A stretch of DNA of 64,000 nucleotides. It comes from Symbiodinium natans. Its lineage: Eukaryota > Sar > Dinophyceae > Suessiales > Symbiodiniaceae. Under the pieces are notes generated by a model, which saw only the letters and a list, made by a program, of their open reading frames with translations, was not told the DNA's origin and did not search any database. The stretch is taken from positions 62,001-126,000 of the forward strand of contig CAJNDS010000258.1 in assembly GCA_905221605.1 (NCBI GenBank), in the 5' to 3' direction. Made by a program: the position numbers and the translations under genes. The first letter of the stretch is position 1, and every line of letters starts with the position of its first letter. Positions 4,386 through 64,000 of this stretch are shown piece by piece.

Positions 4386-4462
<77 letters not shown>

Positions 4463-7400: not shown

Positions 7401-10400
7401 AAGCATCCAGAAAGCACCTGCCCGACGCCGCATTCTGTGTCATTGTTGAAGACGCACCTGCGGGATTCAGGCATGGCCCGTGGCAACAATTGTATTTGAA
7501 CTGCAATAGAGTCAAGAGAGAAGTCACAAAACTACCTCTCGAAGTCTTGACATACAGGATGTATCTGAGGACAGGCTACGAATATTCTCGAATACTGCCT
7601 GCTTAACAGGTGCCAGAATCATCCATCATGTCTGTGATAAGTCAAATATAGGTATGCAGTTGCGCATCATGTATGGCATGTAAACATGTTGGGTCCACAC
7701 TGGGCTATACTGCACCTGAGAATAACCATGATATAACATGTATCGTACATACATATGTACACACTGACTTGCTCCTGCCACCTAAACACTGCTAAATTAA
7801 AGGCTTCCGGCGGCTTAACTTGTTCCGAAGAAAGCCAAGTGTATGTATCTTAAGCAGAACTCGATGTCAAATATCGAAGTGGAGCTAAAAGAAAAAACCG
7901 AAAATACTGCCATTATTTCGACCTTGCAGACTACATGTCAGAAACCATCAGAGAGCTTCCGAGTGGTCATCCACGTGCGGATTCGGAAACTGGAAAATCG
8001 TGATTCGGGGCCGAGTCGGGAAACTGGGATTCTGGAAACTGGAACCTGCTGATTCGGGAAGCTGCAACCCGACATGGCCGCAAGCCACCCCAACCCACCA
8101 CAATGAGCAACCAATACTCAGAAAACTATCTTCTTCAATTCCCAAGCCTGCACATGTCCAGTCTTTAGGCAAGTGGACTGTTCGGAACACACTTACAGAA
8201 TTTGATCTTTCCAACTGGGGATTGCAAGCGGGACAACAAACGTGTGTCGGAAAGTCTCATGTCGTGAAGCTGCTGCTTTGGTGTTGTGGGACCATTCACC
8301 CTCCCTCCATGATCTCGTGTACACCCTGCTGGTGAAGTGCAGAACGGATAGCTGGTCTTTGCGCACGTCGAAACCCACTTGTGTCCGTTTATGCCAAATT
8401 TATGCTCACGTTCCGCGGCCTTTATATTTGTAGCTTTACCTAAACACGTTTCTCATTTGGGCTCGCTTGCGTCTATTGCCGGTCAGGGGCCTTAACACGT
8501 TTTTAGGGGTTCACGACTCGCGGGGTGATGACTCTTATGGTGTTGAGGGGCTCAGACAATGCCGACTTTGAAAAAACGGGGCTTGTTTCTGGAGCTGCAG
8601 TGGGTCGAAATCTTTGAAGTCAACACGCAGACGTCCGGAGCCCTGGACACTTGGTGAAGACTTGCACCAATGTAACTAGCAAGGGTGCACTTAGTTGAAA
8701 AAGGTGTGGGACTATGCTGGCAGAATAGGTACTTCCTTGTGTGGCAAGTGTCGACACGAGCTGGCTAGCCACAGCTGGCCAGCGATTCAAGATTGCAGGC
8801 ACATTGTGGAAGCACAAAGTACAATCCATGTAATGTCACTGTTGTCCGGTGCCTGGACACTGCCTGGCCGATATAGCCTGGAGCACAACGCCACTCGTCC
8901 AAAATCTCCACGCCAGCCTCACCCTGGCGGGCCAATTCGTATCCCTCTGGCATAGGATCCGGCATTGGGCAATCCTCAGAATGCGCAAAATTCTGTGCGA
9001 CTCGTGCCCGCGAGTCGACACACTGTGAAGAGTCTGCTGCACGGAAGCGCGTTTGTTGCCAACCTTGAATTGCCTTCAGAGCTTCTAGGACGCAAGTGGG
9101 TGGCACCCAGTCGACCGGATGGTACGGATCGATGTTGAAGGTAGGACACCTCGACCCATCCGACGTGCGAAGATATTCAGGCACGAACGAAGTGGCTTGC
9201 AACAACATCGCTGGACCGCGCCTTGCAAAGGTTGGAGCTCCAACATAAGGCGGTCGGCATCTAACCTCGCCTCAGCGATGACTCTTTTCGGCGTGTCTGA
9301 TGTAAGTTGAATTCCGCTGCTGTAGTGGGGCTTCTGGAGCCTTCCAGGATCTTAGGATCTCACAAAAGCTGTTCGGCACCATCTCGCCGCAGTGGGAGTT
9401 GTCAAGAACGCAACTGTCCCAAACCTCCGTGGCCTGTCGGAATGCATGAAGCACCACGAAACCAACTCTGAAGCTTTTGGGGGCAATGCACAAAACGGAC
9501 ATTCTCGTACTAATGTCTGGACCCATGGGGGAGAGCCTCCAGCGGCACACATGACTGTGGGATGCCACATCCCGACAGAAAGCCTTCCTGCAGGAAAGGG
9601 GTGACCATGGACACGCTTCCGCTGGAAAGAAAAGTTTGCAGCGACGAGGACTCTGTGCCACTCGATGCCAACAGCCGTTGAGAGCAAATTCTTGGCAAGC
9701 CCAAAAGAAATCCGGGGGCCTGAACTTCACAGGCCGGCCAGTTTGCATCTTCCATCGGCAGGGACGGCGCACTTTCACAGCGCCTCGATGGCAGACAAGC
9801 TTGCAGTGTCTGCATTTCTACCGCTGTCACCTTGGGGATGTTGCCGAGGGCTGACTACAAGCACGACCAAACGATGCGGGAGAACATGTGACGAGATTAA
9901 GCAACTCAGCCATTGAGGCGTCCACTTTGCTGCGATACCGTTCATGCCTTCTGAGCAGCGCCAGCCAACTGGCGAGCCCGGATCCTGGATGAGCACAAAT
10001 CAGTTCAATAAAGACTCGTACGTGACTAGTCTCTTACACTTCAAAGTAGACAACAGAGGCTGTGATCAGCACCACTCGTCTTCAGAGGGGCATCACAATC
10101 GTGAAAACTGGACATGATATGGCACCGGCCTTAGGCATCCTGAGCGGCTTAGCATAATAAAGACGATCTGCACCAAAACCCCACAAAGCTGGCCTGTGTG
10201 TAGTTTCTGCTATGCACAGCCGGATCCGGGCACTCGAAGAAGCTGCAGAGTGGCTTAGTCCAGAAGGCTTCTCCTGTCTTCAGCAGGTGCCTACACTGGT
10301 GCGCATGGCCACTCCGCCTCCCCTGGATGCCCCACTTGGCAGAGACGGTCCCACGTTTTCTTCCAGCACTTGCATCTCAAGAGTGTCCTTCCGGATCCGT

Positions 10401-31015: not shown

Positions 31016-33160
31016 CTAAACACGCTGTCTGAAAACCCGAGCTTGGTTTCGAAGAGACAAAGGATTATGACGAGGCGCGGATGCAACTGCTTCAGGTTCT
31101 TCTTCCCATGGCCGGGATTTCCACGAAGCGATGATATCCACCTTCTGCGTGTCTGCCTTGCTTGGGCTCTTGCTGCGGTCCTCCCTGGAGTACACAGCCT
31201 GGCGGTCGAAGAAGGACATCAGCTTGGACCTGGCCTTGTTCTCATCAACCTCGACAGCAGGGACCCCACGCTGGGCCAACACGGCTTCCACAGCAGTCTT
31301 TGCTCCACCGCCACCCCTTGGATGATGCTCAGGCTTCTTGAACTTCACGTCCTCGTCAACAGAAGCTCTGGGCGCGACCACGCATCGCACTGTTTGTCGC
31401 AAACACAAGCTTTTCTTTGCAGGGACGGCAATGCCGTTCATACTCTCCTTGACATTTGCGTCTTGTGAAGGACGCTTGCGGCCAAATGGATTGGAACCCC
31501 TTGATGTGCCGTTGCCCATACTCTCGCCTGTACGAGGAGGTGCCGATTTGGCCTCCTGCCAGTCATCTCGTAATGCAGAAAGCTGCTGCAGTCTCTTGAA
31601 GTCTCCCGCGAGAAGCTTGATCTCTCGGCTTTCCTGTTGTACTGTGGGCTCTTCGGGTAGACTCTCATCAATGCCACAGTTCAGTGCCTCTTCTTGCATG
31701 GCCTTCTGCGCCTCGGCTTCAGCACGTTGCGCCTCGGCCTGCTCTGCTGCAACTTGCTGCCTGTACTCTCGCTGCTCCCTGCGCTTGAACTCAAGGATAC
31801 TATCTATGACAGCACGTTCGGCTGGAGACAAGGGCTCAAGCTTCTTTACCGTCCTTGTGCGTGGATCAAGATCACCTTTGGCCACACGCACCGCTTCTAG
31901 CTTCAGAAATCCCTTCCCGCAAACTGTTGCAGGATCCATGCCGGAGCAGTCTCTGCGCGTCTCAGTCAAAGGAAAGGACGTAGAGATCGATGTGCATTCG
32001 CCACTTCTCAGATTAAACACAAGATGATGCCAAAAAACACACACCACTGACACAAATCGTGGAACATATTCTTCTGCTGCGCATGGCAAACGCTGCTGAA
32101 ACCCCTTGTCACTGACCATCCACTTCAAAAGGTCTTGCGTGTTGCCATACTTCTTCATGAACTGAAAGGCAGTTTTGATGCCAAACTTCTTGATGTGAGT
32201 CTCGGGCTCCTTGTAATCTGTTCCGCAAAAGACACAGAACTCGGTGAACTGCTCTGGGGACCAGCGATCCAGACAAGACTGGAACTCTTTCACGACGGCC
32301 ACTTTGTCCGCTTCACTCTTCCCCTTGGTGACCTTCGAACCCTTCTGCGGCTGGGAGCATTCAACACCGTCGGCTGCTGACTGCATCTTGCCTTGCGACT
32401 CGTCCGTGGTCTTGCATGCTTTCACCGATGCTTTCTTAGCCTTCTGTCCAGGCTTCAAGCGCTGCCTCTGCTTGCCCTTCGTTTTGCTGCCAGAGCCTTC
32501 GGGAGGAGACTTCTCTTGGTAAGTCGGGCGTGCATCCACTTGCAGACAAGGCAGCGCAATGTGGTCGCCATTCCCAAACTTGTCCATTTTGAACAAGGTG
32601 CTCGGACAGCCGTAGGCTAGCAAGTCACTGTCTTCAGAAACTGCAACGTCAATCCAACCCATTCGGCACATGTAGGCTAGCTGCGCATCCGCCTCGTACG
32701 GAGCGATGATGAAGTCAATGGACAGCTCCCTCAAGGCACTTTGAAGCCTCGAGATCATGGAAGATGTGACTTTGATGGCACCCTCACACTTGGAGGAGAT
32801 GTCTTTCTCATCCACCTCGTGTCCCGATTGCTGTCGGCTTATGAGCTCTAAAGCTTCCAGGCGCGCCTTCTCGCGTGCTTTTCCACGGTTCTCGTCCTCC
32901 TTAGCCTTGGCTGGCAACCTGTCTCCGTCAAAGACGATGATCGGCTTGATGCGGGAACACCGCAGCACCTCGCACATCCGCAAGAAGTACCTCACAAACT
33001 TGTCGGTGTCTACGCCTTCTACCAACTCCCGGGAGCAGGCAAATGCCCCTTTGTGCATCCAACACATCGCATCCACGCCGACCGTTTTCCCCTTGAAGTC
33101 ATCAATGTTGATCTTCTTGACATATGGCTTTAAGAATGGCAGCAAGCCATGAATCCCCAT
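31016..33160 (-). CDS. EXO1: EXO1-like 5'-3' exonuclease, intronless
   Basis: A 714-residue XPG/RAD2-family nuclease for mismatch repair and end resection. It starts MGIHGLLPFL at an ATG at 33,160; an upstream in-frame GTG is ignored because family members begin MGI. Metal ligands sit where EXO1 has them: D30 (VGVDAM), D78 (VFDGD), E156 and D158 (APYEAD), D177 and D179 (SEDSD), and D315 (FCGTDY). About 84 Lys/Ser-rich residues (roughly 209-290) are inserted before the helix-two-turn-helix, which reads GTDY...FGIKTA rather than GCDY...GIG. The C-terminal third is low complexity, with a Glu/Gln/Ala helix near 500. RSKLMSFF at 644-651 has PIP-box spacing (Q..L..FF) but Arg in place of Gln. There are no introns across 2.1 kb, although its neighbours are intron-rich. 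No spliced-leader relict or poly-A tract was seen at its ends. Confidence 0.92.
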   Translation of the reverse strand: MGIHGLLPFLKPYVKKINIDDFKGKTVGVDAMCWMHKGAFACSRELVEGVDTDKFVRYFLRMCEVLRCSRIKPIIVFDGDRLPAKAKEDENRGKAREKARLEALELISRQQSGHEVDEKDISSKCEGAIKVTSSMISRLQSALRELSIDFIIAPYEADAQLAYMCRMGWIDVAVSEDSDLLAYGCPSTLFKMDKFGNGDHIALPCLQVDARPTYQEKSPPEGSGSKTKGKQRQRLKPGQKAKKASVKACKTTDESQGKMQSAADGVECSQPQKGSKVTKGKSEADKVAVVKEFQSCLDRWSPEQFTEFCVFCGTDYKEPETHIKKFGIKTAFQFMKKYGNTQDLLKWMVSDKGFQQRLPCAAEEYVPRFVSVVCVFWHHLVFNLRSGECTSISTSFPLTETRRDCSGMDPATVCGKGFLKLEAVRVAKGDLDPRTRTVKKLEPLSPAERAVIDSILEFKRREQREYRQQVAAEQAEAQRAEAEAQKAMQEEALNCGIDESLPEEPTVQQESREIKLLAGDFKRLQQLSALRDDWQEAKSAPPRTGESMGNGTSRGSNPFGRKRPSQDANVKESMNGIAVPAKKSLCLRQTVRCVVAPRASVDEDVKFKKPEHHPRGGGGAKTAVEAVLAQRGVPAVEVDENKARSKLMSFFDRQAVYSREDRSKSPSKADTQKVDIIASWKSRPWEEEPEAVASAPRHNPLSLRNQARVFRQRV

Positions 33161-34181
33161 GGGCACGCTGGCAATAGGTTTGTGCAGCTACGTATGCCCC
33201 GCAACCTACTGAAACTGCACAAAACCCATCCTATTACATTGCATTCATTTGCCGATTCTTTGTTTAGTTACTTCATGTGCCAATGCACAACTGCGGCCGA
33301 AACGGCAATCAAGGGACAGCAGCTAAAATCAAGTGCACTACGGGCAGCAAGCTTGGACAGCCAGCATCAGAATGTAAAACACCTGGGCGAATGAGCTTGA
33401 CCGGCCTGGACGTTCCCGATACTGCGGGAAAGTATGGGCCGAATGGCTGCGTTGGCGCATGACAGGTGAAAGAAAAAAACCCAACTGGAATCGGACCAAT
33501 TCTCCCGTATCCCTGATCTTTGGAGCTCCCGCAGCCTCTTTCTCGAGTGCCTTTATATGACTTCATGCTATGCCTGTCATGGACTTTGTGCCTCCTTCCC
33601 GGAAAAACAGGCCCCTGCTCCCCTCTGTGCCTGCCAGGACGAACTATTTGCTGGGCACAAGATACGCGCAACTTGCGATAACCTTCCATTGTCAGCACTT
33701 TGTGTGCGAGAGTCAGAGTCTGAGTGAGGGAGCGAGAGCGCGAGCGAGAGCGAGAGTGATGAAATTAATTCTCTGCGGCTCCCATCTTCCTCACCCGCTT
33801 CATCGTTTTTAAAGATCGACCGCATCGGCTAGGCCATGTGCAGATGAAAGAAAAGATGAAATATACAGTCGACGAGCCGTATTTCCAAAAAGACCGAAGA
33901 GAGAGTCGCCTCTTTGGGGGTGGCCCACTTTCCCACTGAGCAAGCAGGGCAAGAGTCAACCGATTTGTCCAGCTGCCAGATGCATGGAAGGCAGCTGAAC
34001 AGGAGGCTAGGAATGGCAGAGAGTGGCATTCAAGCACTATACAGCAAACAGCCTTGGGATGCTCTGACATTCGAAAGCTTCAGTATGCTGCCTGCCTGTA
34101 CGTGTCTGTACATGTCTTTCCGCGTCTGTACACACAAAAGAAGAATGCATTGCATTCGGAATCCACAAAGCCTTCAAATGT
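33161..34181. other. Intergenic region between EXO1 and PrpF-like gene
   Basis: No coding motif was recognised. It holds a short GAGCGAGA purine run at 33726-33757 and should contain the EXO1 promoter and 5' leader and the 3' end of the PrpF-like gene. Confidence 0.5.
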
Positions 34182-50075: not shown

Positions 50076-52440
50076 AAAAACTGCCGAAACTCTCAAAATT
50101 CTAACTTAGAGAGCCCCAACATTCCGACTCAGCCCGACGCAAACGAAATTACTCGACAACGCCACGTAATACTAAACGATCGTCAACACAAACCACCTGC
50201 TTTGCTGCGCCCAAGACTGTGGTCGTTTTTGCACCTACGTCCAAGGTTTTGCGCCGCTCTCAATAGCAGGCGTTTGCTTGTTTGTTTTTTTTGCACCTTA
50301 CGGTAGGATCTGTTTGAAGAGTGCCACCCCGCTGCGTCTCGTAAACCTAGGATGTTGCTGATTTAGCAGGTGTTCAGCCATGAACGAAGCCGTCTTCAGC
50401 TCCTTATGGCATGCTCGCTGCACTCTGAAAGAACAATTTGTTGCTTGTCAACAATGGCACTTGCGCAAGGCTGGGCATTGCTTCCAGCCAGTACCATCGG
50501 GAACGCACGCATGTGAAAGATCAGTCACTGAGTGCGCAATCCGTTCAGTACCTAGGTGAAATAGCCCCCGCTGCGCGATGTCTGACTTTACCACAATATT
50601 CCCGCACCTTACAGAGATCGCTGCACAGGCGACTTTCGACGCAATTCCCCTTAGACGACACACACAGAACACTGCACGGACGGTGCCCGACTTTCTGCTG
50701 CAATTTCCTTTAGAACAGCTTAGGCATAAAGTCTAGTGCCCAATGGCCAACTTTACAATACACTTCTCCTTAGAATGGCGTAAAGTCCAACGCGTCTGAA
50801 AGAAAAGGTTTTAAAAAGTTTTCTTTGCACATTTACGATTTCCAGCGTTCTAAGGGGAACTGGAAAGCACAAAAGCAAGGACCTTTCCCAGATTCCGGTC
50901 AACCTTGGCAGAAAATCCATTGGGGTCCTATGTGCGCATTGAGATGAAAACGTGGCACGTCCTGGGACACCGCCAGTGGCAGCACTTTGATTCATGACAA
51001 GAGCATAGGTTTTGCAAGGTGTTCGAACCCTGGGTTCGAACTCCTGGGGGGGGAGTTGGGGGGGGGAACATATAACATATAACTCTCGAACTTAGGTTGA
51101 ACCCAGGGTTCGAACTCTTGGAACCCTAGATTCAACCTAGGGTTCGAACACTAGAACCCTAGGTTAACTAACCCAGGATTCGAACACAGAGTTCCCGAAC
51201 CCAGGGTTCGAATATTAGAACTCCAGGTTAACCAGGGTTCGAACACTGGAACCCTAGGTTAAGCAGGGTTCGAACATAGAGTTCCCGAACCCGGGTTCGA
51301 ATGTTAGAACTCCAGGTTAACCCAGGGTTCGAACACTGGAACCCTAGGTGAACCCAGGGTTCGAACAGAGAGTTCCCGAACCCAGGGTTCGAATATTAGA
51401 ACTCGAGGCCAACCCAGGGTTCGAACACGAACACAGAGTTTCCGAACCTGGGTTCGAATATTAGAACTCTCGGTTAACTCAGGGTTCGAACACCTCCCCC
51501 GAATACAAAGCCGGGCCTCCCCCGAACCCCAGGTTAATCCAGGGTTCGAACATCGAGTTTCCGAACCCAAGGTTCGAATGTTGGAACTCTAGGTTAACCC
51601 AGGGTTCGAACACCTCCCCAGAGACGACATCACGAAGCCCGGAAACCACATGACGAAGCCGGGCCTCCCCCGAATACTAAATTACGAAGCCGGAACTCTC
51701 CCACATTGGAACTAGGTTAATCCAGGGTTCGAACATAGAGTTTCCAAACCTCTCTTCTCTCTTGTACAGGCTTTGCAGGAAGACAAGGAACAAAGAGGGT
51801 GAATTGGGTGGAATTTAGAATAAGTCTTCTCTCCTCTAATAGAAACAAGAGGGGTGGAATGTAAAAAAACCTTCTCTCTTCTGGAATTTTAAATGATTAA
51901 AAATACCTGCTCACTTAATGTGAAAAACGCAGAGCTCTTTTTCACTCCACGCTTGAGCCAAAACACACAAGGTGTTCGGCAAGGCTCTCGCAGAGTCAGC
52001 GCAGCTTCACTTTCGTGAATTCCATCTCAACTTTGTTAAACAAAGGAGGAACACATGCAAACGTCCTAATGCTTCTCAGGACTTCAGTGCTTCAGCAAAA
52101 CAAACACAAACACGCCAGTGCACAGCCACTCTGCTCGAACCTTAGTACGACGACACGAGCGAAGCGAGGGTCGGCGGTCAAGGTCTGAAGAGCAAACTCA
52201 GAGCAACACGCACTTCTTCAAGGATGCCCTACAGCATCTCCAGTGCTTCTCTGCTCATCATGCACACTTCAAGCAACTCTAAACAAGCTCAAAGCAAGCT
52301 CAAACCATGCCATGCCAATGTCTGTTCTTGCCAAAACACACAAAAGGTTCCAAACGTAGTTTCACACTCATGCAGAGCAAACTCATGGTTCATCCCACAT
52401 GTGCAAGACGTCATGTCAACTGTAAGGGCACTCACAAGGA
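49951..52440. other. Gene-free stretch rich in repeats
   Basis: No coding region was recognised. From left to right: a CA-rich tract, a degenerate 55-59 base repeat (50570-50790, words like CGACTTT...CAATTCCCCTTAGA), the TTCGAA array, and a purine-rich stretch (51.77-51.9 kb) with CTTGAGCCAAAA at 51953-51964. Transcription changes from minus to plus strand across this interval. Confidence 0.6.
51021..51750. repeat. Minisatellite of CCAGGGTTCGAACA units
   Basis: More than twenty copies of GGGTTCGAA or its complement, alternating with GGAACCCTAGGTTAA and AGAGTTCCCGAACC words. Spacing is about 30-50 bases, becoming irregular at the right end. Confidence 0.9.
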
Positions 52441-53163: not shown

Positions 53164-53241
53164 ATGAGTCTTTTCTACCAGCTCGTGACGGTCTCAGGAG
53201 CTGCGGTCCTGCGGTCAGTTCCCTCGACTAGTAAAACATGA
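53164..53241 (+). CDS. Short upstream reading frame overlapping the fibre-like gene
   Basis: 25 codons starting MSLFYQLVTVSGAAV. Its TGA overlaps the ATG of the next gene (ATGA). The TAAAACATGAGTCTNTT start context is nearly identical to that of the larger gene, so this looks like a truncated copy of a gene start. Confidence 0.35.
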   Translation: MSLFYQLVTVSGAAVLRSVPSTSKT

Positions 53242-54371
53242 GTCTATTTGAGTCGACCATCACCGGGAACATCCTGAACGATGGCCAGACCCCCATCACC
53301 ACCATCGAGATGCAGGGGATCTCTGCAGGCCAGCTGGCCACGGTCCTCACGGCCTACACCCCCCTGACCGACACCGCAGCCAACACCGCCTCCATCGGCA
53401 CCAACTCGGCCGCCGTGGCAGCGCTACAAACGCAGGTGGCCGCCATCCCACCGCCTCCTGACCTCGCACCCTATGCGCTGGCCGCCGATTTGGCAGCCAC
53501 CGAGGGCCTCATCGCTGCCAACGCTTCCAGCATCACCAGCCTGAGCACCAGCCTCACTACGGGGCTGGCGGGGAAGGCGAACCAAAGCGCACTCGACGCG
53601 CTGCAGCTGGACGTGAACTCCAATCCGGCCAACGCTTCCATGAGCAGCGCAATCACCAGCGCCGACAATGCAGTGCTCGCGCAGGTCGCAGCCACGTATG
53701 GGCTGAAGAGCACGCAGGACCAGCTGGCCCTCGACGTGGCGGCCCGGCAAACAGCCGCGGACGTCGACCAGAAAATAGCGACGGCTCTTGTGGACCGGCC
53801 CACAACTACCGACCTCAGCAGCACAGTGGCCCTGCGCACCACGCCCGCGGATGTCTCGCAGCTCATCGCTACAGCCCTGCTTCCTTTCGTGCAGCAGGCG
53901 GCCCTGGACGCAGCCCTGGCCATCCGAGACGGGAGGCTCGACGCCGCCGAGGCGGCCCTGGCGGTGCTGCAAGCCGCGGGCTTCCAGTCGGCTGCCGACG
54001 TGGCTGCAGCTCTTGCCACCGCACTCGCAGGGTACACGGACACCGCGGGGCTCAGCGCACTGCTGGCCGTGCGAGATGCGCGCCTGGATGGGCACGACGC
54101 GGAGATCCTGGCGCTGCAAGGTGCGGGGCCCTTTGCGATGGCGGCCGAGCTGTCGGCTTCCGAAACAAGTCTGCAGAGCGCCATCGACGCGCTCAACTCG
54201 GCGCTGGCCGCGCTCACCACCGGCGGGGGCACGAACCTCGCCAACGCCCAGGCATGGCCCGGGCAGACGACCTGGGACCTCCTCGTGGGCACCAACACCA
54301 TCCGCAACTGGCACTTCAACGCTCCCCTGAGCATTACCCTCGAGAACGACAACTTCACGCTGAGCCGCTGA
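53238..54371 (+). CDS. Phage/virus tail-fibre-like protein, interrupted
   Basis: 377 residues, intronless, rich in Ala, Leu, Asp and Thr, starting MSLFESTITGNILND. It has repeating helical segments such as TTPADVSQLIATALL, YTDTAGLSALLAVRDARLD and LATALAGYTDTAG, the (D)xYTxxEVxxLL style of phage and large-virus fibre or adhesin stalks. No catalytic motif is present, so a structural or adhesion role is inferred. The frame stops at 54,371, but the adjacent frame continues the same pattern (DAYTQGEVNALLAPLASESW) to 54,466, which suggests a one-base frame break near 54,360. A mobile element follows from 54,469, and matching text resumes at 63,914. High GC content, no introns and plus orientation set it apart from the host genes. 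The antisense strand is also open; I treat that as a shadow. Confidence 0.6.
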   Translation: MSLFESTITGNILNDGQTPITTIEMQGISAGQLATVLTAYTPLTDTAANTASIGTNSAAVAALQTQVAAIPPPPDLAPYALAADLAATEGLIAANASSITSLSTSLTTGLAGKANQSALDALQLDVNSNPANASMSSAITSADNAVLAQVAATYGLKSTQDQLALDVAARQTAADVDQKIATALVDRPTTTDLSSTVALRTTPADVSQLIATALLPFVQQAALDAALAIRDGRLDAAEAALAVLQAAGFQSAADVAAALATALAGYTDTAGLSALLAVRDARLDGHDAEILALQGAGPFAMAAELSASETSLQSAIDALNSALAALTTGGGTNLANAQAWPGQTTWDLLVGTNTIRNWHFNAPLSITLENDNFTLSR

Positions 54372-54469
54372 GCCTGGCCTGCGATGCGTACACGCAGGGA
54401 GAGGTCAACGCCCTGCTGGCCCCCCTGGCTAGCGAGTCCTGGGTGCTGGCCACCCTCGGATCCTATTAG
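54359..54469 (+). pseudogene. Out-of-frame continuation of the fibre-like gene
   Basis: LSLACDAYTQGEVNALLAPL continues in the next frame to LATLGSY, then TAG. The TAG is made only by the first G of the inserted element. The match of style with the preceding frame indicates one original gene. Confidence 0.55.
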
Positions 54470-54654
54470 TTCACAGCTAGTTCAAGCCACACTACCAAAG
54501 CCACTACCGAGCCCTAAAAAGTCCCGGCCAGAAAGCACCTACCCTAAGCACACGCTCTCTCCTTTTTTGACTTTGCCGGAAATGCAGCTCAGAGTACGAA
54601 GCACAAAGCAAGCAATCGAATTGCGGCAAAGCTGAGTAGACAAAGCTTACCACC
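54469..54654 (+). repeat. Left terminal repeat, copy 1 (186 bp)
   Basis: Matches 55175-55360 with one visible difference (CACGCTCTCTCC against CACGCCCTCTCC). The preceding base differs, which fixes the left end at GTTCAC. Confidence 0.9.
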
Positions 54655-55046
54655 GTGCAAGCGAATGAATTGTATCAAAGCAGAGAACCTGAGTGAGCCA
54701 TGACGAGAAAACACAGGAGCAAAACAGAACAGATCTTGACCAAGGCAAGAAAAAGAGCTCGTGGATTCTCGTGAAACGAGGCTGGCTCCAATCGCTTAAA
54801 AGATGAGCGCGCCTTTGGGTTGACATGGCTAGTAGCTCGCAAGCCTGCTGTCCTAAAGCAAAAAGGGAGCACAACCGCTAGACGGTAGCAAAAGAGCTAG
54901 CACAGCCGTTTAGAGGACGGGGCCCCTCTGGGCAGACCCGGCAGACAGCTTGCGAGTATGGTACACGTCTCAAAGTAGAAGCAAGCACTGCTGTGAAACA
55001 AGTGCAGATGAAGGAATGAATCCTCATAATGGGAGTGGTGGGTGGG

Positions 55047-55174
55047 ACAATAAAAGCGAAGCTACTAAGCGACGCAATGGAAACTGCAAGAATTCGGTGT
55101 GTGGCTTGAACCAAAAGCAACAAAGTACGGTGATCTTTCACAACAGTAAACAGACATAAGTAAACACATGAACC
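55047..55174 (+). repeat. Right terminal repeat, copy 1 (128 bp)
   Basis: Matches 63786-63913 with one visible difference (GACATAAG against GACATGAG). It is followed directly by the left end of the next element without spacer bases. Confidence 0.9.
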
Positions 55175-55360
55175 GTTCACAGCTAGTTCAAGCCACACTA
55201 CCAAAGCCACTACCGAGCCCTAAAAAGTCCCGGCCAGAAAGCACCTACCCTAAGCACACGCCCTCTCCTTTTTTGACTTTGCCGGAAATGCAGCTCAGAG
55301 TACGAAGCACAAAGCAAGCAATCGAATTGCGGCAAAGCTGAGTAGACAAAGCTTACCACC
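55175..55360 (+). repeat. Left terminal repeat, copy 2 (186 bp)
   Basis: Second copy of 54469-54654, at the left end of the long element. Confidence 0.9.
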
Positions 55361-55603
55361 AATTTAACACTGGCAAAGTCAAAGCTCGCCCCGAACAGCC
55401 CAATTTTTAAAAGTGAGCGAAGACGTGCCAGGCGTGCCCCCCAGTTGACTGGGTGGATCAAGCGGAGTGTTGTAACATGGCTTCCGTGACTCAAAGTTCC
55501 AAGCGCAGAGCCAAAAACCAGAGCTGCTTCCCGAAGCCAGTCGCCTCGTAGAAGTCGTGTCACGTGAGGACCCCCCAATAAGGAGGGGAAAGAAAAAGCA
55601 CGG

Positions 55604-55903
55604 CTAGGGTCGATTGCCCAACTGTCGGAGCACAGAACAAAGTACAGATCCAATGCCTTGGATGACTGCACACAGAGAGGCCTGAACCTCCGCCAAACGA
55701 GTGTTGCAGAGCTCGAGGTCGGCCTCCATGTCAGACAACCGGACTGTGTGCCCACTGGACGACTGCTCCAGGGCGAGGACACGAGTGAGAAGCCCATCTG
55801 TTGTCAGATGAGCGCCCGACAGGTCCCCTTGCAGGATGGCTACCTGATGCCTGAGACGAGAGACCTCCTCCCGCAGAAAGGCCACCTCGTCAGAGCGGTC
55901 CAT
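55604..55903 (-). CDS. Coiled-coil protein of the element
   Basis: 99 residues starting MDRSDEVAFLREEVSRLRHQ with heptad-like leucines through VAILQGDL, VLALEQ and DMEADLELCNTRLAE, ending IGSVLCSVLRQLGNRP before TGA. Predicted oligomerising coiled coil; function unknown. It is the last frame of the element in transcription order. An earlier in-frame ATG at 55,960 would add 19 residues. Confidence 0.5.
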   Translation of the reverse strand: MDRSDEVAFLREEVSRLRHQVAILQGDLSGAHLTTDGLLTRVLALEQSSSGHTVRLSDMEADLELCNTRLAEVQASLCAVIQGIGSVLCSVLRQLGNRP

Positions 55904-57313
55904 GTGCACGGCCCGCGGGTAGAAAAGCCAGCTGCGGAAGCCTTTCAAAGTGATGTACATGAAAAGGACGTGTAAAGCGTTCCATGTTCAAATGCAAAGA
56001 GTGCTCTAATGCTCCCTGAGAGCCACGTGGGACAGAGGCCGCGCGGGAAAAGAGAGGCCGTTATGGCACCGCCGCTGCTCGTCAGGCCGTCCAAGCATGA
56101 GAAAGGCTGACAGGAACCCCCAAAAGTGGGATAACAGGGAGAAAGCGTGCGTTCATTTACTCCAACAGACGGTGCGCGGATCTGAAGCATTGAGCGGCGC
56201 ATATCTCCTGGCGAGGTTGCAGGCAGGGGGCCTAAAACCAGCTGAAGGAAACTATCCTACCGCCCGAAAGACCCACAGGCCGAAACCCAGGCTTAGGGAC
56301 AGTGCAAATGAGGGCAGAGGAAGCCGCACAAAGAAATTCTGTCTGCCACAAGTTGAGTTATCCCAAGGGAAAGAAATGTGCCTCCAAAGAGAAAGCTTGT
56401 AATACTGGGCACAGGGAGCTGCAGGCTAGGGCGAGTGCTGCGTGGCATGCTCACAAAGAACAGCAAAAACAAGACGGAGCCATCCTTCTCGCCAAAACGC
56501 ACGCTGGCCCTGGACTGATAGGTCCTAGCGCGTGGGACTGAAACGCGGAAGCTGCGACGAGCCGAGGATTTAAGGACTGTGTGACAATCTTGAAGGCCTG
56601 TAAGAGGCTCCGAACTAGCCGAAAAGGGAAGCCGGCCTGACTCTTGACAGGAAAAGGAGAGGGTGTAGGCAAAGCCCCTTACTGACTGCCAGCAGAACAA
56701 ACGCACTGAGCCAAGCACGGCCTAGGGCTCCGTATGGATTGGGACGCATTCCTATACAGGGGGGAAAAACCGAAGGCTCGGGGTGTAGCTCAAAGTCACC
56801 GGGTCAAATGAGCTTTAGGCAAATGCCGGGCCTGAAGACGCGAGAAGGAGGACGATATCTCGGAGCTTTGGTGGCCGAAGCAGCCAAGACCTGAGCGAAA
56901 AGAAAAGGAGGGGCAGCCCACCGTAAGAGCGGCGGATTATGCGCTATGGAAAAGAGAAAAACTGGTGGAGTAACCCGAATTAATGACGCCTACGCTGCCG
57001 CCAGTATTTCTCCCTCCGTGCCGGCACCAAAGTCGGCCGACTGCCTAAGCACGTGAGACCTGCTCAATGAAATCACGGAGATCACAAAGGAGGATCTTGA
57101 AGCAGGAAGCATGTCTAAGGGCCAAATGTCAATGCCAATCTCACGGTATAAGCCCCGCAAAGCTAGCCCAGGAGCAGAAGCACGGAGTGCCATGGTGCTG
57201 TTGAGGGCACACAAACAAAAGAAAGTGCAGGTACAAAGGCTATTTGAAAGCCTGCGTAACCAAGCACACCTGAAAGGAAGGCCCTGTGGAATCGAGAAAA
57301 GAAGGGGTCACCC

Positions 57314-57619
57314 TCACGAGTTGCTTGGTGCTTCAGCTAGAGGAAACTCCTCCGACTCAGGCTCTGGGGACATCTCGGCCAAGTTGCGGACAAAGAGAGC
57401 TCGCTCCTGAGGATGTTGTGCCAAAGCGTCCAAAAGAGTCTTGACCAAGTCGTTCTCGAGGCGGATGGTACTCCATCTCGCCTTCCAATTGTGCGAAAGT
57501 ATTTGCCTGGCGGACGCAAAGGAACGATCCTTAGTCAAAGCATCCCAAAGCGGGCCGTCCGCGGCATCGCGGATCTGATAGAAACGCGCGTCTGACATGG
57601 GCTCGTCCTGGGACGACAT
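57314..57619 (-). CDS. Small helical protein of the element
   Basis: 101 residues starting MSSQDEPMSDARFYQIRDAA and containing LTKDRSFASARQILSHNW and ENDLVKTLLDALAQHPQ, with an acidic tail (EMSPEPESEEF). It has the balanced composition of a soluble helical protein, unlike the hydrophobic frames of the surrounding pyrimidine-rich spacer. No family was recognised. Confidence 0.5.
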   Translation of the reverse strand: MSSQDEPMSDARFYQIRDAADGPLWDALTKDRSFASARQILSHNWKARWSTIRLENDLVKTLLDALAQHPQERALFVRNLAEMSPEPESEEFPLAEAPSNS

Positions 57620-59203
57620 AATGGCAAAGCTCAGAGAAAAGTTGCACTATCCCGTTGGAGTGGGAGACGCCACAAACAGTCTTGGGCCCCAAAGGCTGGC
57701 GAGAGGGCACAGACGCAGGTGACACCCCGCAGGGGCGCAGATGAAGCAGACACTGAAAGTTAGACAGAACAAAAGTAGGCAAGCACAATACCCAATGATA
57801 CGCACTGATATCCTGGGGTGTAAAAATCGAAGAACTGGCCGAGTCGCGCACGGATGCACCGAGAAAAGCTCCAAAGACAAGCCGTCTCGGCGTCTGCGGG
57901 AGTGGCATAGGCCAAGACCTGCACAGGACGGAGATGTCCCTGAAAGGAGGGCTGACCTAACGAGCCGAAACCTTTGGGCCCGAGAAGTAGGAGATAAGAA
58001 TCACAAGAACAAAGGCTCAAATGAGTGTCCCCAATGTCGACATCTGAAGGAAGACGTGACAAAAGCACAGTGCTCTAGGGACCTGAAAGGACTCAGCAAC
58101 ACTGATGTGTGCCAGCATCTTGAGTCAGGGACGCCTGGCGGAAAGGTTCCAAGAGCCGGTGGGACCAATGGCCTCGAAATGCACAAAACTGACGCTCAAT
58201 GGCCCAGGAGTTGGAGTGCGGTTGCGGTCTCAAAGAGACAAAATCCCCGCAAGCACAGTGAAGAAAAGACGGTCAGACTGCAATGAGGCAAGCACTCGCG
58301 AGGTCGAAGCAACCCCCAGGGCAGGAGAAAGGCAAACTCTGGGTGGTCGTATCGCACCTGGGGCAGACCAGGGGTCACGAAGTCCTAACTGGCTGGCGTG
58401 TAACTTGGATGACATGAAGCAGCATGAGACCTATAGATAGGTTTAACACTCCTGCACCGGTAACGAAAGGGAGATGCCCAAGGTTCAAGATGCGCGGAAC
58501 AGGGGAGCATGCTGAAAAGCCTCTGAGCTGCTGACCCCAACGGACTGGGACCAGAACATCAGCGGGTCGAGGTCGAAACCTCCCGAGAAAAAGGAAAAGA
58601 GGGCCGGTCGATGTGGGAGGGCGGCTTCGGGAAAAGGGACCCGCCAGAGCATGAAAATATTCATGCGACGTCGCACAGGGAAGCCCCATTAGGGAAAGAA
58701 AGTAGCTGCCCCGAATGCTATCTGTTATTATTTTGTGTCAAAAGCAAGCTCCAAGCGAAAGCAGGGTGACTACACCGTACACCTTCCAGGGAAAATGAAC
58801 CTGGAAGGCGCAGCCCAGGCTGCTGTCAGGAACTGTTATGCGGGCCAAAGCGAGGCAAGCCGAACAGCACACAGAGAGACAGCAAGCGGAGCGCAAAAAA
58901 AGGCTGGGCTGAGGGAAAGATTGGACACACTGAAAGCTGCGCCTGGAAACATGTGAGCAGGTTCCAAAGACAGACCTGGGAGCGAAAGCTGCATGAGAAG
59001 GGGCACAAGAATCTGGAGTGAAAGCAGCCCCAAAACCGCAGGCCCACTCGGATTTGCATCGGCGCGTTCTGAAGCCAATCGTCCTTCAGCAGCCTAAGGC
59101 GCCCGGAGGAAAATGCGGTGAGACAAAGGCCAAAACGGACAGAACGAGCAAAGCCAAAGCAGAGGGCGCCAAAGGAAAGACAAGGTGCTGGAGTGAGGGC
59201 TTT

Positions 59204-59960
59204 CTAGGGCTGCCCTTGTGCTCTCCTAAAAGCTTTGTAGCAGATGCCACAGCGGTGACGATGAGGTAAATCCTCGCGCGTAAGAACTACCCCGCAATGG
59301 CCAGCCCCGCAGTCTTGACATGTAGAGCGGCAGTAAATTTGCTGGACAATCACCGTTTCGTTGTGCTGGCTGAGTGGGAAGGCGTCCGACCCCATGCCAG
59401 TGGAAAAAGGAGGACTGTGATACCCAAAGCCAAAGCCATTGGCCGATGTTCCATCCATGGCCCGCTTCCCTGGCGCGCTGAATCAAAGTATCAAAGGCCG
59501 AGTCCTGCTCCATCCAAAAGCGAAGCCAGTCGTCCTCCTTCCAACCACTGGTGCCATCGAGGGAAGCGGCCTCGTCCAACCATACATGTGCACGAAGAAG
59601 GTCAGCGGGGGCCAGACCAAGGGAACGGTGGCCATTAGGAAAATGCGGCCAATGGCCATCGAAAGCAGTATGCGCCGGCGTGGTCTGAGAAGCTGACGTG
59701 CTCGGGTTCGAAGCGGCCTTCTCCATCTCCTCAACCCAATGGAAAGCCCAATCATCAGAGCCGAAGCCAAAGACAGTATCCATTTTTTCAGCAGCCTCTG
59801 TTAAAGGAGTGAATGCTGGAGAGGACGAAAGCCAATGCCACAGCCATTGCGCCGGTGAAAAGCCACTAGTCGCCGGCATGTGGCGCGCGTCTTCCAGCCA
59901 AGATACCGCCTTGTTTACCTCCGTATCCGCAAGGCCCAGGAAAATGTCGACATTTGCCAT
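59204..59960 (-). pseudogene. Trp-rich repeat protein with Cys/His C-terminus, frameshifted
   Basis: From ATG at 59,960 (MANVDIFLGLADTEVNKAVS) the frame contains four related units of the form G[FW]....W...W...: GFSPAQWLWHWLSSSPAF, GFGSDDWAFHWVEEM, GWKEDDWLRFWMEQDSAF and GWNIGQWLWLWVSQSS. Near 59,420, at a TTTTT run, the coding signal moves to the next frame. That frame gives CRSTCQDCGAGHCGVVL then LPHRHRCGICYKAFR, a zinc-finger-like cysteine/histidine set, and stops at 59,204. The first frame stays open to 59,226 but loses the pattern. An upstream in-frame ATG at 60,140 would add 60 residues with a hydrophobic stretch, doubtful because the spacer itself is pyrimidine-rich. No known family was recognised. 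Confidence 0.55.
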
Positions 59961-61906
59961 TGCCAGCAAAAAAGCAAAGATGGGCAGGGCCACCAAGGCA
60001 AGAGACAACTTTCGTGTCAAAGTTGGAAAGCTAAAACGAGGATCAAAGCTCTGAAGCAAAGCGGCAAACAAGAATGAAGAAGCTCTGGATGCAAAAAAGA
60101 AGCACTGATTTGCTGTGTAGTTGTTACACACGAAGCTCACAAACGACGCTCAATAGCAGTTCAGATTGTCTGAGTGCGAGGCCCGGGGAAAAGCGCTGCA
60201 ACCAATCTACCCCCCCGTAGGGTAAGGGTGAAGAGCCGGGCCGAAGCGAGTAAGCACTGAAGCTCCGATGCAAGCACCGACATGAGTGCAAAATAAAGAA
60301 AGCCAAAGCAAAGTGATGCAAGTCTGCCCGAAAGCGCGACCCCCTTTCTGAGGCTCGCAGCAGAGCAAAGATTCGCGTTCAAAAAGGGGAGCGGCCACTG
60401 TCAAACCAGACCTGACCCGATATCAAGGGCAAAATGAAAATTTCCCAGAGGGCCTGGAGATTTTCCTCCTGCACAGGTTAACAGGCAGTCCTTATGAGGG
60501 ATTAGGGCTTAAGGGTTATAAGGTTTGAAACCTATGCCCCTCTTTTTTGGTATCCAGCCGACGACCAAATGGGAAAGAACGCGGGAATGGTTAAAGCTAT
60601 GGACTTGCATACGGGAGACATGCCCGAATAAAGAATGCCGATTATTGTGATAGAAGCCTCTCCAAAGAGAGCCTCCTTGTGGCTGAAGCAATGCAAAGCT
60701 CCACGGGCTGAAGTGAAAGCCGTAAAATGCCATACAGGAATGTGATTGCGCTCCAGGGCAACAGCAGGGCTTCCGAAGGACTGTATGGTATTGACAAAGC
60801 TGAGCGCTGGGCTTGATGTAGGCGGTCTGGAAGGATCCCTCAGGCGAACAGGCCAAAAACCCCTAGGCCAGACCTGAATTGTCAACCGAAACGTCCGCTG
60901 GAGGTTGGCGGAGCCAAGAAGGCTAACAACCGAAACTGTAGAGACGTCTCGCCCTGAAGTCTTTAACGTTCGCGAGACCCTGGGTGTCCGTTCTGTATGA
61001 GTAGCTCCGGTGATGGTGTGCGACACCCGAAAGAAACACACAAAAGATAAAAGGCCTCCACCCCCCTTTTTAGGTCGGGAAGGCCGGCAAGGCACCGATG
61101 TGTGTCAGGAAAGCAACAAGCTGAGCTCAAAGCAAGACGGAGTCGGCCTCCCAGGGCTTCCGGAGCAGGAACAGCGGAAAGGTGTGGCCTGCTCTCGGCT
61201 ACAAAAATAGAAACTGACAAGAGTCAGAACGCCAAAGGCCTACAGCCACGAAGAAGCAAGGAAGGGACCTGACGGTCCCAAAAATTGGAAAATGCGACAA
61301 AGCAAAGAAATGAACTCGCGATAAATGCACAAGGGCAATAGGCATTAGGAGGCAAAAATGTCTCCAAGCCTAAGAAGCTCTGACGCTCGGAAAGTATGCT
61401 CAGCAGGCAGACGCTCTGAGTGCAAGGCAGAAAAGAGATAATCTTCCAGCACCCCCTCGGGGCCTGAGCGAAAGCTAATGATGCCGGCTCTGAGAGGCAA
61501 GTTATTGAACTGCAAAAAAAAGACACACCAAAATTGGAAGTCCCGATCATGCAAAGCACTCTAGAAGAGCATCAAAGAGCGAAGCCTGTCGTGGTGCGTG
61601 CGCACACCGCTCGAAGAAGTTGAAATGAGAGCGAGAACGGCACCTGAGCTCAATGGACATGTCAAAAAAAAAAAGAAATGGCGAAGCGAAGGAAGGGCAT
61701 GGCACTGGCCCCTCACCACAGAACAAAGTGATTTTTGCACAAAAGGCAGGGTCGAGCGCAGGCAAAAGGTCAGCCAAAAGCGACAAGCTGAGCTGAGGGT
61801 GAAACGACTCCCCGATTCAAGTGCATACTGCCAAGAGGCATGAAGGTTGGCTGCGGGACTTCTCAAGCCAGAGGAAAAGTGCCCGTCTCGGGATAAAAGC
61901 CAGAAA

Positions 61907-62605
61907 TTAGCTGGGCTGATCACTGGCGGCTTCGTCCTCCAGTACAGCAGGTGTGGTCGGAGACCCAGGAGAAGCTGTAGTCGGTGGAGCTCCCGTACTC
62001 TTCGGTGCTGCTGGAGGTGGAGCAAGACCAATGAAAGAAGCCGTCGCCGATGGAAGGGTCGGAGTAGAAGGGTGAGGAACCGCATAGACCCCAAAAGGCA
62101 ACTGCAAAGTGGCAAAGCCGTCAACGTATATGAAGGGCAAAGTGACAGCGGCCGGTCTTGGGGGCGGAGGGCCCGAGGGTCCCGCAGACCCAGGAGCTCC
62201 AAGTGCAAGGGCAGCCAAGCCAAAGGAAGATCCCGGCGTGGTCGCTGTGGAATGCGTCAGCGCAGTGGAGGGACCAGATGGGCCAGAAGGAATGTCCGGG
62301 GCCCCTGCAAAGCTGGAAGAGGGACGAGGCGTGGTACCCGAGGACGGCTCACCATCTGCGGACCTGGCTCGACGGCTCTCCATTCCACGACGCAAAGCCA
62401 AAGATGACACAGAACCCGCCTTGGATCTGACCAGCGTGCTATCCCCTGTAGGGGGGGGAGGACCGCCCGGCGGGGACGGGACTTCTTCCGTTTCCGAGCT
62501 CGCATCCCGTGAGCGGGGTTTTGGCGTAGGCAAACCAGCAAAGCGGCCCCGCCTCAAAATCGAAGCAAGGGGTTTCGCGGCTGGTCGTTTGTGCCCCGGC
62601 ATCAC
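61907..62605 (-). CDS. Pro/Ser-rich low-complexity protein of the element
   Basis: 232 residues with a basic start (MPGHKRPAAKPLASILRRGR), a long Pro/Ser/Thr/Gly-rich middle, and one ordered-looking segment (AVTLPFIYVDGFATLQLPFG) before a Pro/Ala tail. It resembles gag-type or other nucleic-acid binding linkers in composition only. The ordered segment and clean start argue against chance. Function unknown. Confidence 0.45.
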   Translation of the reverse strand: MMPGHKRPAAKPLASILRRGRFAGLPTPKPRSRDASSETEEVPSPPGGPPPPTGDSTLVRSKAGSVSSLALRRGMESRRARSADGEPSSGTTPRPSSSFAGAPDIPSGPSGPSTALTHSTATTPGSSFGLAALALGAPGSAGPSGPPPPRPAAVTLPFIYVDGFATLQLPFGVYAVPHPSTPTLPSATASFIGLAPPPAAPKSTGAPPTTASPGSPTTPAVLEDEAASDQPS

Positions 62606-63421
62606 CAGGCGGAGGACCGAAAAGGGAAAAGGGGAGTTACAAAAGGAATGCTAGGATGCAAGAGCCAGGTAGGCGACCTCTTGAGAGGAGGCTGCAGTCC
62701 ACACACAGAATGACGTGCGCTGGTGCTCCAAAAGGGAAGGACAGACGAAGCAAGAAGCAAGAACCAATAACTTGAGTCCCCTGCCATGCCAGCAAGACCA
62801 GAATGTCGGCGGAGCGGATGGCAAAAACAAGGTGCTCAACACCTGCAGTTGCGTACCAAAAGAAATGCACAGACCAAGTGAAGCTGCTAGCGGAAGTGCA
62901 GGGAAAACGGCAGCCTGGCCAAGCATGGCCTGAGAAGCCCGGACAGTGTCCTGCAGAAACAGGCGAAACAAGAACGTATACTGTCGCCGACGCAGACATA
63001 GCTCAAAGGCCGCAAGACAGCGAGCTCAAAACCAGCAGGCCTAACGGGGGAAGTCGGCCATGCCCAGGAAAGGTCAAAAGAAATGCAACAGTGGACACCA
63101 CTGAGCTTGAGTTGCAGGAACCGATGCAACAATGAACAAGAAAACGCAAGTCAATGTAACATGTGCTCACAATGACCGCAGCTGGTTAACAAACGGGCTT
63201 TTGCACGGAGCATCATGTAACTGAAAAATTGCAAAGCAAGTCGCCATGGGATGAAAAGCAGAAGGAAGTCCCGTGCAAGATGTCCACAGGATACCTCCAA
63301 AGGAACAGAGCCTGGCATGAAAGTGCACGAACGCTGAGCGGACGCCCAGAGGCAGGAGCTTCCGAGCACCCTGCGGAAGAACATGTGCACATAATGGCGT
63401 AGAAAAGGGAAAAGGGGGCCA

Positions 63422-63640
63422 TCATGGCCTAACCATCTTCCAAGCACGAAAGGCACGAGACAAGGTCGCCTGGGCCTCAAGGTGCTCTAGACGCACTGAA
63501 AGCATTGAACACCAGCGCAAAAGTAAAGCCAATGTACGTCCGTGTGCGAGGTGCTCTCTTTGCAAGAAACTCAAGCTGCTGGCGCTGGTATCGCTGGAAG
63601 AAGCGTTGCCAGGCGAGGCCACCTCAAGGGCCTGTCCCAT
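63422..63640 (-). CDS. Small helical protein of the element
   Basis: 72 residues starting MGQALEVASPGNASSSDTSA, then a long amphipathic helix (LALLLRWCSMLSVRLEHLEA and AQATLSRAFRAWK). First frame in transcription order. A GTTAGG donor-like word follows WKM near the end, so it could be a first exon. Confidence 0.45.
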   Translation of the reverse strand: MGQALEVASPGNASSSDTSASSLSFLQREHLAHGRTLALLLRWCSMLSVRLEHLEAQATLSRAFRAWKMVRP

Positions 63641-63725
63641 CTGGCAGCTGATCGCAGCTGCCGTGCACGAGGCCTAGTGCCGAATCTGTAGCTTACAAGT
63701 TCTCTAGACAAAGCTTGTCAGTAAT

Positions 63726-63815
63726 ACAAAGCAAAGCTACCAAGCGATATAATGCAACAACAAAAGCGAAGCTACTAAGCGATGCACAATAAAAGCGAAG
63801 CTACTAAGCGACGCA
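63726..63815 (+). repeat. Three 29-base subterminal repeats
   Basis: Units at about 63726, 63757 and 63786 share AAGCGAAGCTACTAAGCGAYGC with increasing similarity towards the right end. The short element has only the last unit. They may be recombinase or replication protein binding sites; this is inference. Confidence 0.6.
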
Positions 63816-63913
63816 ATGGAAACTGCAAGAATTCGGTGTGTGGCTTGAACCAAAAGCAACAAAGTACGGTGATCTTTCACAACAGTAAACAGACATGAGT
63901 AAACACATGAACC
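63786..63913 (+). repeat. Right terminal repeat, copy 2 (128 bp)
   Basis: Second copy of 55047-55174. It ends CATGAACC, and the next base differs from the first copy's context, fixing the right end. Confidence 0.9.
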
Positions 63914-64000
63914 CGACTCCAGCGAAACCAATGGAGCCATCACATCAGCCCTGGCGGCTTACTACGACAGCGCACAAACGGACGCCGCGATTGCTGCGGC
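63914..64000 (+). pseudogene. Right-hand part of the fibre-like gene (partial)
   Basis: Open to the window edge, reading DSSETNGAITSALAAYYDSA then QTDAAIAA, the same Ala-rich stalk style as the frame ending at 54,466. The two bases TA left over at 54467-54468 plus C at 63914 complete a Tyr codon, so phase is kept when the inserted bases are left out. Confidence 0.55.

Follow-up and report, generated by a model that had tools for sequence, protein, structure and literature searches.

A four-gene, probably non-autonomous element with the split direct repeats of tyrosine-recombinase retrotransposons in a fibre-like gene of Symbiodinium natans

The closest described systems are the tyrosine recombinase (YR) retrotransposons that follow the PAT/Ngaro/VIPER scheme of split direct repeats (PMC4157794). 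In VIPER the order is A1 ... B1 A2 B2, and SIRE is the A2–B2 region (PMC6681497); SymbioDIRS-Dnmt3 has the order A–coding–B–A–B and a reverse transcriptase (RT) that fits Pfam poorly (PMC5890265). Here we describe a 9,445-bp element in a 64,000-nucleotide stretch of the genome of the dinoflagellate Symbiodinium natans (hereafter the window; contig C258, CAJNDS010000258.1, positions 62001–126000, in a genome of 759 Mb and 2,543 contigs). It is very probably a non-autonomous YR retrotransposon of the split-direct-repeat (PAT/Ngaro/SymbioDIRS) type: the direct repeats are split, with B1 and A2 adjacent, and insertion left no target-site duplication; neither an RT/RNase H nor a tyrosine recombinase of its own is evident in the window copy. 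An initial annotation of the window had concluded that no standard class fits. The plan of split-direct-repeat YR retrotransposons does fit, and three autonomous-type YR elements with this plan were read in the same genome, one of which, on contig C1790, has similar ends and one of the same genes.

The coding strand of the element is minus, and in coding orientation its plan is a1 (128 bp)–P1–P2–P3–P4–b1 (186 bp) a2 (128 bp)–spacer (392 bp)–b2 (186 bp). Repeat pair A (54469–54654 and 55175–55360) and repeat pair B (55047–55174 and 63786–63913) contain 1 mismatch each over 186 and 128 bp, and identity is lost abruptly at their inner edges. On the plus strand of the window, GTTCACAG, at the left end of A, and CATGAACC, at the right end of B, each occur at their two places only. 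Both repeat pairs, with their lengths and boundaries, agree to the base with the ends first proposed. The whole element is A-rich on the plus strand, spacers included (AT skew +0.25 to +0.35 per 2 kb; 54001–64000). Its parts, in window coordinates, are as follows.

54469–63913, minus strand: the whole element, 9445 bp, recognised by exact ends, ends common to other loci and empty paralogous sites; it sits in a fibre-like gene
54469–54654, minus strand: A1, the terminal repeat b2 in coding orientation, 186 bp, from repeat comparison
54655–55046, minus strand: spacer of 392 bp between a2 and b2, which with its flanking repeats makes up the short form that is also found alone
55047–55174, minus strand: B1, the internal repeat a2, 128 bp, from repeat comparison
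55175–55360, minus strand: A2, the internal repeat b1, 186 bp, flush with B1 in 13 of the 13 loci that have A2
63786–63913, minus strand: B2, the terminal repeat a1, 128 bp, its outer 82–123 nt 86–88% identical to a1 of the elements on C2362, C1790 and C2021
54480–54492, no strand: 13-bp subterminal inverted arm GTTCAAGCCACAC, 11 nt from the b end, at the same offset in 15 of 15 loci
63838–63850, no strand: partner arm, the reverse complement of GTTCAAGCCACAC, 63 nt from the a end

Other genomic copies share these ends. At least 41 genome places match a 192-bp query from the left end (best 40 of 93 candidates scored) and at least 40 match the 128-bp right end (best 40 of 82 candidates scored); among the matches listed, those of the left end are mostly paired, 624–834 bp apart. 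We compared 15 loci, namely the window and 14 further loci that were read. The left end GTTCAC(A/C)GCTAGT is present in 15 of 15, CATGAACC closes all seven right ends contained in those loci, and the left flanks differ at every one; five extra left ends read GTTCACAG, GTTCACCG or GTTCACTG, and five extra right ends all read CATGAACC. Relative to the window copy, the interiors of the other copies are ~97% to ~72% identical. P3 serves as a marker of 18 contig places, window included, among which C736 is distant and partial. The copy on C1998 is shortened to 4.5 kb, and C857 was rejected as a full copy, as it diverges after 1.5 kb of interior and its other end was not found.

The initial annotation had seen an 8.7-kb element in tandem with a 706-bp short form. 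Its junctions were right, but the division into two elements was not: 13 of the 15 loci have the order A1–spacer–B1A2–interior, that is, one element with split direct repeats. Two independent elements that came to lie in tandem because insertion recurred at one junction would account for the solo short forms (A–spacer–B alone, with their own flanks) at 2 of the 15 loci (C2365:187322 and C2166), and for C1935, where three A ends spaced 647 bp apart mark two successive short units. We nevertheless consider this very unlikely, given the constant order and flush junction at 13 of 15 loci, the same plan in the autonomous-type elements and the absence of any recognised solo long form among the 15 loci. 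The repeats themselves also disagree with it, being nearly identical within a copy and diverged between copies: A repeats are on average 99.6% alike within one copy (n = 13) versus 89.9% between copies (105 pairs), and B repeats 98.6% (n = 7) versus 93.9% (105 pairs). Such likeness, as between the long terminal repeats (LTRs) of one insertion, indicates that both members of a pair came from one template at insertion, and speaks against a chance tandem as well as against misassembly, which had been raised as a possible source of the repeats.

The insertion site can be followed in a fibre-like gene, the two parts of which lie on either side of the element.

53238–54468, plus strand: left part of the target, a fibre-like gene with repeated Ala/Ser/Thr-rich segments, in an open frame joined across the site
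63914–64000, plus strand: right part of the same fibre frame, which runs on past the window in C258:126001–127500

With 54468 joined to 63914, a single open frame results (...VLATLGSY followed by YDSSETNGAITSALAAYYDSAQ...). The joined 62-residue peptide matches 60 genome places (75 candidates, all scored), and at 31 of these, some of which may be duplicate contigs (for example, C583/C1142), it is stop-free over 59–62 residues at 77% identity or more; the best empty-site match, on C756, is 98% identical across exactly 186 nt. C258 therefore has the element at a site that is empty in many paralogues, with codons neither gained nor lost; the empty sites are paralogues within the same genome and not the same locus of another strain. 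These matches bear out the earlier statements that the fibre frame is interrupted at 54468 and resumes in phase at 63914, and they identify the right flank as the same frame, not an unrelated one. The lack of a target-site duplication, as first stated, is likewise borne out at 13 two-sided insertions (11 full and 2 solo), none of which has a direct duplication longer than 2 bp: it is 0 bp in ten cases, 1 bp in two and 2 bp in one. An LTR retrotransposon was rejected on two counts, the repeats being split instead of forming a terminal pair, and no duplication exceeding 2 bp.

The missing target duplication, together with the tandem units at C1935, would also suit a Helitron/Helentron or another class that inserts without one. 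We give this reading almost no credence. In six frames of the element (stops read as X), Pfam matched no Rep or helicase and returned a single line, DUF728 at E = 0.87; the 15 left flanks have, by eye, no fixed dinucleotide; and the split direct repeats would be left unexplained.

The fibre-like gene is one member of a multicopy family, and many of the 60 matches lie in open frames of more than 1,000 aa. It has further frame breaks of its own, for example at 54371. By eye, its end resembles an endosialidase-type tail-fibre chaperone, for which Pfam gave no match, and no relatives were found in viral contigs. The gene may itself be viral or mobile.

The 13-bp arms came to notice through folding of 54469–55360, the stability of which is not above that of shuffled sequences (z = −0.52). 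A 5-base terminal inverted match had been described at the outset and stands; the 13-bp subterminal pair had been missed. In B1, the partner arm lies 62–64 nt from the a end at 14 of the 15 loci, as it does in five of the seven B2 repeats read, and we infer that the pair represents recombinase arms. Rfam at gathering scores gave no match in the window, and a tRNA search found none.

Between the repeats, the substitution pattern supports four genes, where the initial annotation had counted five frames on the same strand.

61907–62602, minus strand: P1, a 231-aa Pro/Ser-rich basic protein, stop included; codon-position bias and dN/dS
59204–59960, minus strand: P2, with 266 aa where intact and a frame break near aa 184 in the window copy; the protein has W-rich repeats and ends in a Cys/His tail, and the C1790 element carries this gene as well
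57314–57619, minus strand: P3, a 101-aa protein, stop included; codon-position bias and dN/dS
55604–55903, minus strand: P4, a 99-aa coiled-coil-like protein, stop included; a distant relative lies beside a recombinase-like open reading frame (ORF) in C2422 and C1850

In a comparison of the window copy with C2178, C1913, C2098 and C2211, broken-gene copies included, all 34 intervals with the strongest codon-position bias overlap P1–P4, and over the spacers, taken together, the pattern is flat. Median ratios of non-synonymous to synonymous substitution (dN/dS) are 0.18 for P1 (5 intact copies, 10 pairs), 0.11 for P2 (6 copies, 15 pairs), 0.12 for P3 (9 copies, 36 pairs) and 0.10 for P4 (10 copies, 45 pairs). 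Judged by these ratios and the codon-position pattern, P1–P4 are under purifying selection. P2 is intact, at 266 aa, in 6 of the 11 copies whose start was found and broken in the other 5, the window copy among them. Genome-wide, P2 has 47 matches (63 candidates, all scored), with open frames of at least 260 residues at 79% identity or more at 16 places, autonomous types counted in; P1 has 26 matches, P3 has 20 and P4 has 29 (all candidates scored). The strong P1, P3 and P4 matches fall in copies of the window-element family, and no separate host gene for any of the three was recognised among the genome-wide matches. Profile searches with P1–P4 against Pfam, PHROG and NCBIfam gave nothing over cut-off, with weak lines (E = 0.0056 and worse) for P4 and others. 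A 27-residue match of P2 in viral contigs was dismissed as chance, and a 699-aa frame on C570 was rejected as a P1 fusion because its P1-like stretch shifts frame, and was taken as a diverged relative.

As first stated, the element has no recognisable transposase or RT of its own. Pfam on ten ORFs gave nothing above chance for the element; an RT/RNase H was not recognised in the window copy by the six-frame search or by codon-position bias, which occurs only at P1–P4, and a tyrosine recombinase was not recognised by Pfam or the codon-position pattern. Without an RT/RNase H, the element is non-autonomous at best.

The enzymes that it lacks are found in relatives. The 9,829-bp C1790 element begins with a1 (114 bp), a recombinase of 780 aa, P2 of 266 aa and a gag-like ORF with a terminal Cys/His motif, and continues with a part resembling a methyltransferase, a stretch that by eye runs from RT (with YVDD) through RNase H, b1 (178 bp) a2 (114 bp), a spacer and b2 (178 bp). 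Compared with the window element, a1 is 88% identical over 82 nt, b1a2 75% and P2, which is intact, 81%; the same 13-bp arms lie at the same offsets, and P2 of C1790 against six non-autonomous copies gives dN/dS of 0.10–0.12. The two thus have their cis ends in common (a1, b1a2 and the 13-bp arms), as would be expected of a C1790-type derivative, and a C1790-type element is probably the helper that moves the window element. C2021 resembles C1790 and is more broken. Split direct repeats also occur in a nested element on C1169 (321 and 251 bp) and in locus L034 (147 and 265 bp). L034 (C602:717655–726920, 3–9224) is a 9.2-kb YR retrotransposon that must be recent because its split repeats are 99–100% identical; it was inserted in A2 of the C602 family copy, five bases past the B1/A2 junction. 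The C1169 nested element (L014 7192 to L015 6181; ~9 kb) lies inside a window-family copy and has a gag-like part, methyltransferase–RT–RNase H by eye and a recombinase. Such nesting shows that elements of this type have been at work in the genome. Pfam RVT_1 is over cut-off in L034 (E = 1.3e-8) and below it in C1790 (3.8e-5). Four recombinase ORFs that diverge from one another all have HxxK, H, Y and a K further upstream as invariant positions, and Arg is present in the three that cover its place; we take these residues to be the recombinase catalytic set. Against PHROG, the recombinase ORFs score weakly as integrases (E = 0.0021 and 0.036). The inverted pair of the L034 family is another sequence, of 12 bp, at 63 and 13 nt, and the C1169 nested element has an 11-bp arm match at other offsets.

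A YR DNA transposon of Crypton type, which would move by its recombinase alone without reverse transcription, could explain the exact insertion without duplication, the circle-like b/a junction within each full copy and the lack of a recognised RT in the window copy. To our knowledge, Cryptons have no split direct repeats, and we counted this against the idea. We regard it as unlikely, as a relative with the same ends has an RT and a gag-like ORF, and split direct repeats mark YR retrotransposons (PMC4157794 and PMC6681497).

Further links to recombinases come from P2 and P4. A recombinase stretch lies just upstream of P2 on at least 14 contigs (the matches of the C2362 ORF, of which the best 60 of 1,916 candidates were scored, crossed with the P2 matches); C311 and C2350 among these look like duplicates, and two of the 14 were read (C1790 and C2021). 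On C2362 itself, which has the a1 end, the P2 match is limited to the C-terminal tail and forms the end of an ORF of 744 residues that has recombinase-like motifs. This recombinase ORF (L032 726–2960) ends in ~32 residues of P2 tail and is followed by ~525 bp that are 83–90% identical to some window-family copies; C2362 is either chimeric or points to an exchange of domains between recombinase and P2. A distant P4 relative (32–35%) lies directly before, and partly overlaps, a recombinase-like ORF in C2422 and C1850. These two ORFs match recombinases at E = 6e-20 and 1e-47, the C2422 ORF being without the HxxK motif in the frame read. It follows that P4, too, belongs among such elements. Further small coiled-coil ORFs occur near recombinase-like ORFs at L058 (about 960–1475) and L035 (3162–3644).

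Could the four ORFs be relics in an ordinary deletion derivative, a dead product of decay? The frameshift in the window P2, the breaks in 5 of 11 copies and the shortening of C1998 would accord with this. It is set against the intact P2 in the remaining six copies and the 16 long open frames, dN/dS of 0.10–0.18, a codon-position bias confined to the four genes, and the results for P1 and P3 in the autonomous-type loci compared. In L034, C2362, C1790, C2021 and the C1169 nested element, tblastn (E ≤ 1) with P1, P3 and P4 gave E values of 0.2–0.84, which we took as chance; since P1 and P3 were not found in these five autonomous-type loci, they are not plain leftovers of them. On balance, decay is a highly improbable explanation.

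Several points weigh against a non-autonomous YR retrotransposon mobilised by a C1790-type helper. A parasite mobilised purely in trans would not be expected to have four genes under purifying selection, and dN/dS was calculated on intact ORFs only, which is a bias. The gag and Pol frames of C1790, the putative helper, are broken, and Pol of the C1169 nested element has no Pfam match. The recombinases were assigned from the positions of motifs and from weak profile scores, with no integrase match in Pfam, NCBIfam or a PDB sequence search. The arm match in the C1169 nested element may be due to chance. The contrast between B pairs is small, that of C319 being only 92.3% alike. Moreover, the RNA intermediate, the circle, mobilisation in trans and the roles of P1–P4 are all inferred.

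For a non-autonomous YR retrotransposon, we propose the following cycle. The host would transcribe the window element, and the RNA would be copied by the RT/RNase H that a related autonomous element of C1790 type encodes. With the internal b1/a2 junction as template, both ends could be restored and a circle closed. The tyrosine recombinase of the autonomous element would then recognise the common ends and the 13-bp arms, and insert the circle without target duplication. In the split-direct-repeat model of Goodwin and Poulter, the ends are reportedly rebuilt through a circle; the internal b1/a2 is an exact fusion of both outer ends, which is what that model needs. P1–P4 would most likely serve in packaging of their own RNA, in nuclear import or in recombinase recruitment, and preferentially on the molecule that encodes them; such a preference would explain why selection keeps them.

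A bolder scheme, which we hold tentatively and think doubtful, is a two-component retrotransposon in which the proteins of one segment are needed for its own spread. Segment I (C1790 type) would supply recombinase, P2, gag and methyltransferase–RT–RNase H, and segment II (window type), with the same ends, P1, P2, P3 and P4. The segment II proteins could form a separate particle or adaptor set, or be the tools of a hyperparasite that captures the machinery of segment I. P2, which is present in both segments and has a Cys/His tail like that of the C2362 recombinase, might be the link.

Elsewhere in the window, a 716-aa open frame on the minus strand (31016–33166) has XPG N and I domains (E = 2.2e-20 and 2.6e-16), a tandem array at 4080–4553 consists of 59.5 units of GAGAAAGA, and 51093–51613 is a nested tandem repeat with periods of about 30, 60 and 90 bp. 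DVNP, a dinoflagellate chromatin protein family, has 25 matches over cut-off in the genome and 0 in 14 control genomes, in line with a dinoflagellate host.

The elements described here resemble SymbioDIRS-Dnmt3 and other Symbiodinium DIRS in their dinoflagellate host, the order A–coding region–B–A–B, a methyltransferase in Pol and an RT poorly matched by Pfam (PMC5890265). The window element differs in having no recognisable Pol, gag or recombinase, and in carrying P1–P4, a form that the accessible text of that paper does not mention (PMC5890265). With PAT/Ngaro it shares split direct repeats, and an autonomous relative with RT and YR, but it lacks the core enzymes and has four other proteins (PMC4157794). 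Its short form is the region between internal and terminal repeat and hence the counterpart of SIRE in the VIPER/SIRE system of trypanosomes; non-autonomous SIRE, a short truncated form, corresponds to the solo short form, whereas the non-autonomous form here is ~9 kb long with four genes (PMC6681497). In the open literature, covered mostly at the level of titles and abstract openings, we found no description of a four-gene non-autonomous DIRS-like form. TR-GAG elements of plants are likewise non-autonomous, keep a protein gene and take RT from others; they differ in their LTR order, in using integrase and not YR, and in having one gag gene compared with four genes here.

For the host algae, these results indicate that YR elements are hard to detect with standard profiles, and they provide candidate YR recognition sites in the form of asymmetric inverted arms of 12–13 bp with family-specific sequence. 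Gene loss is the expected course for non-autonomous retroelements, not the maintenance of four genes by purifying selection. With this family, it becomes testable what a retroelement must encode for itself when its enzymes come from elsewhere.

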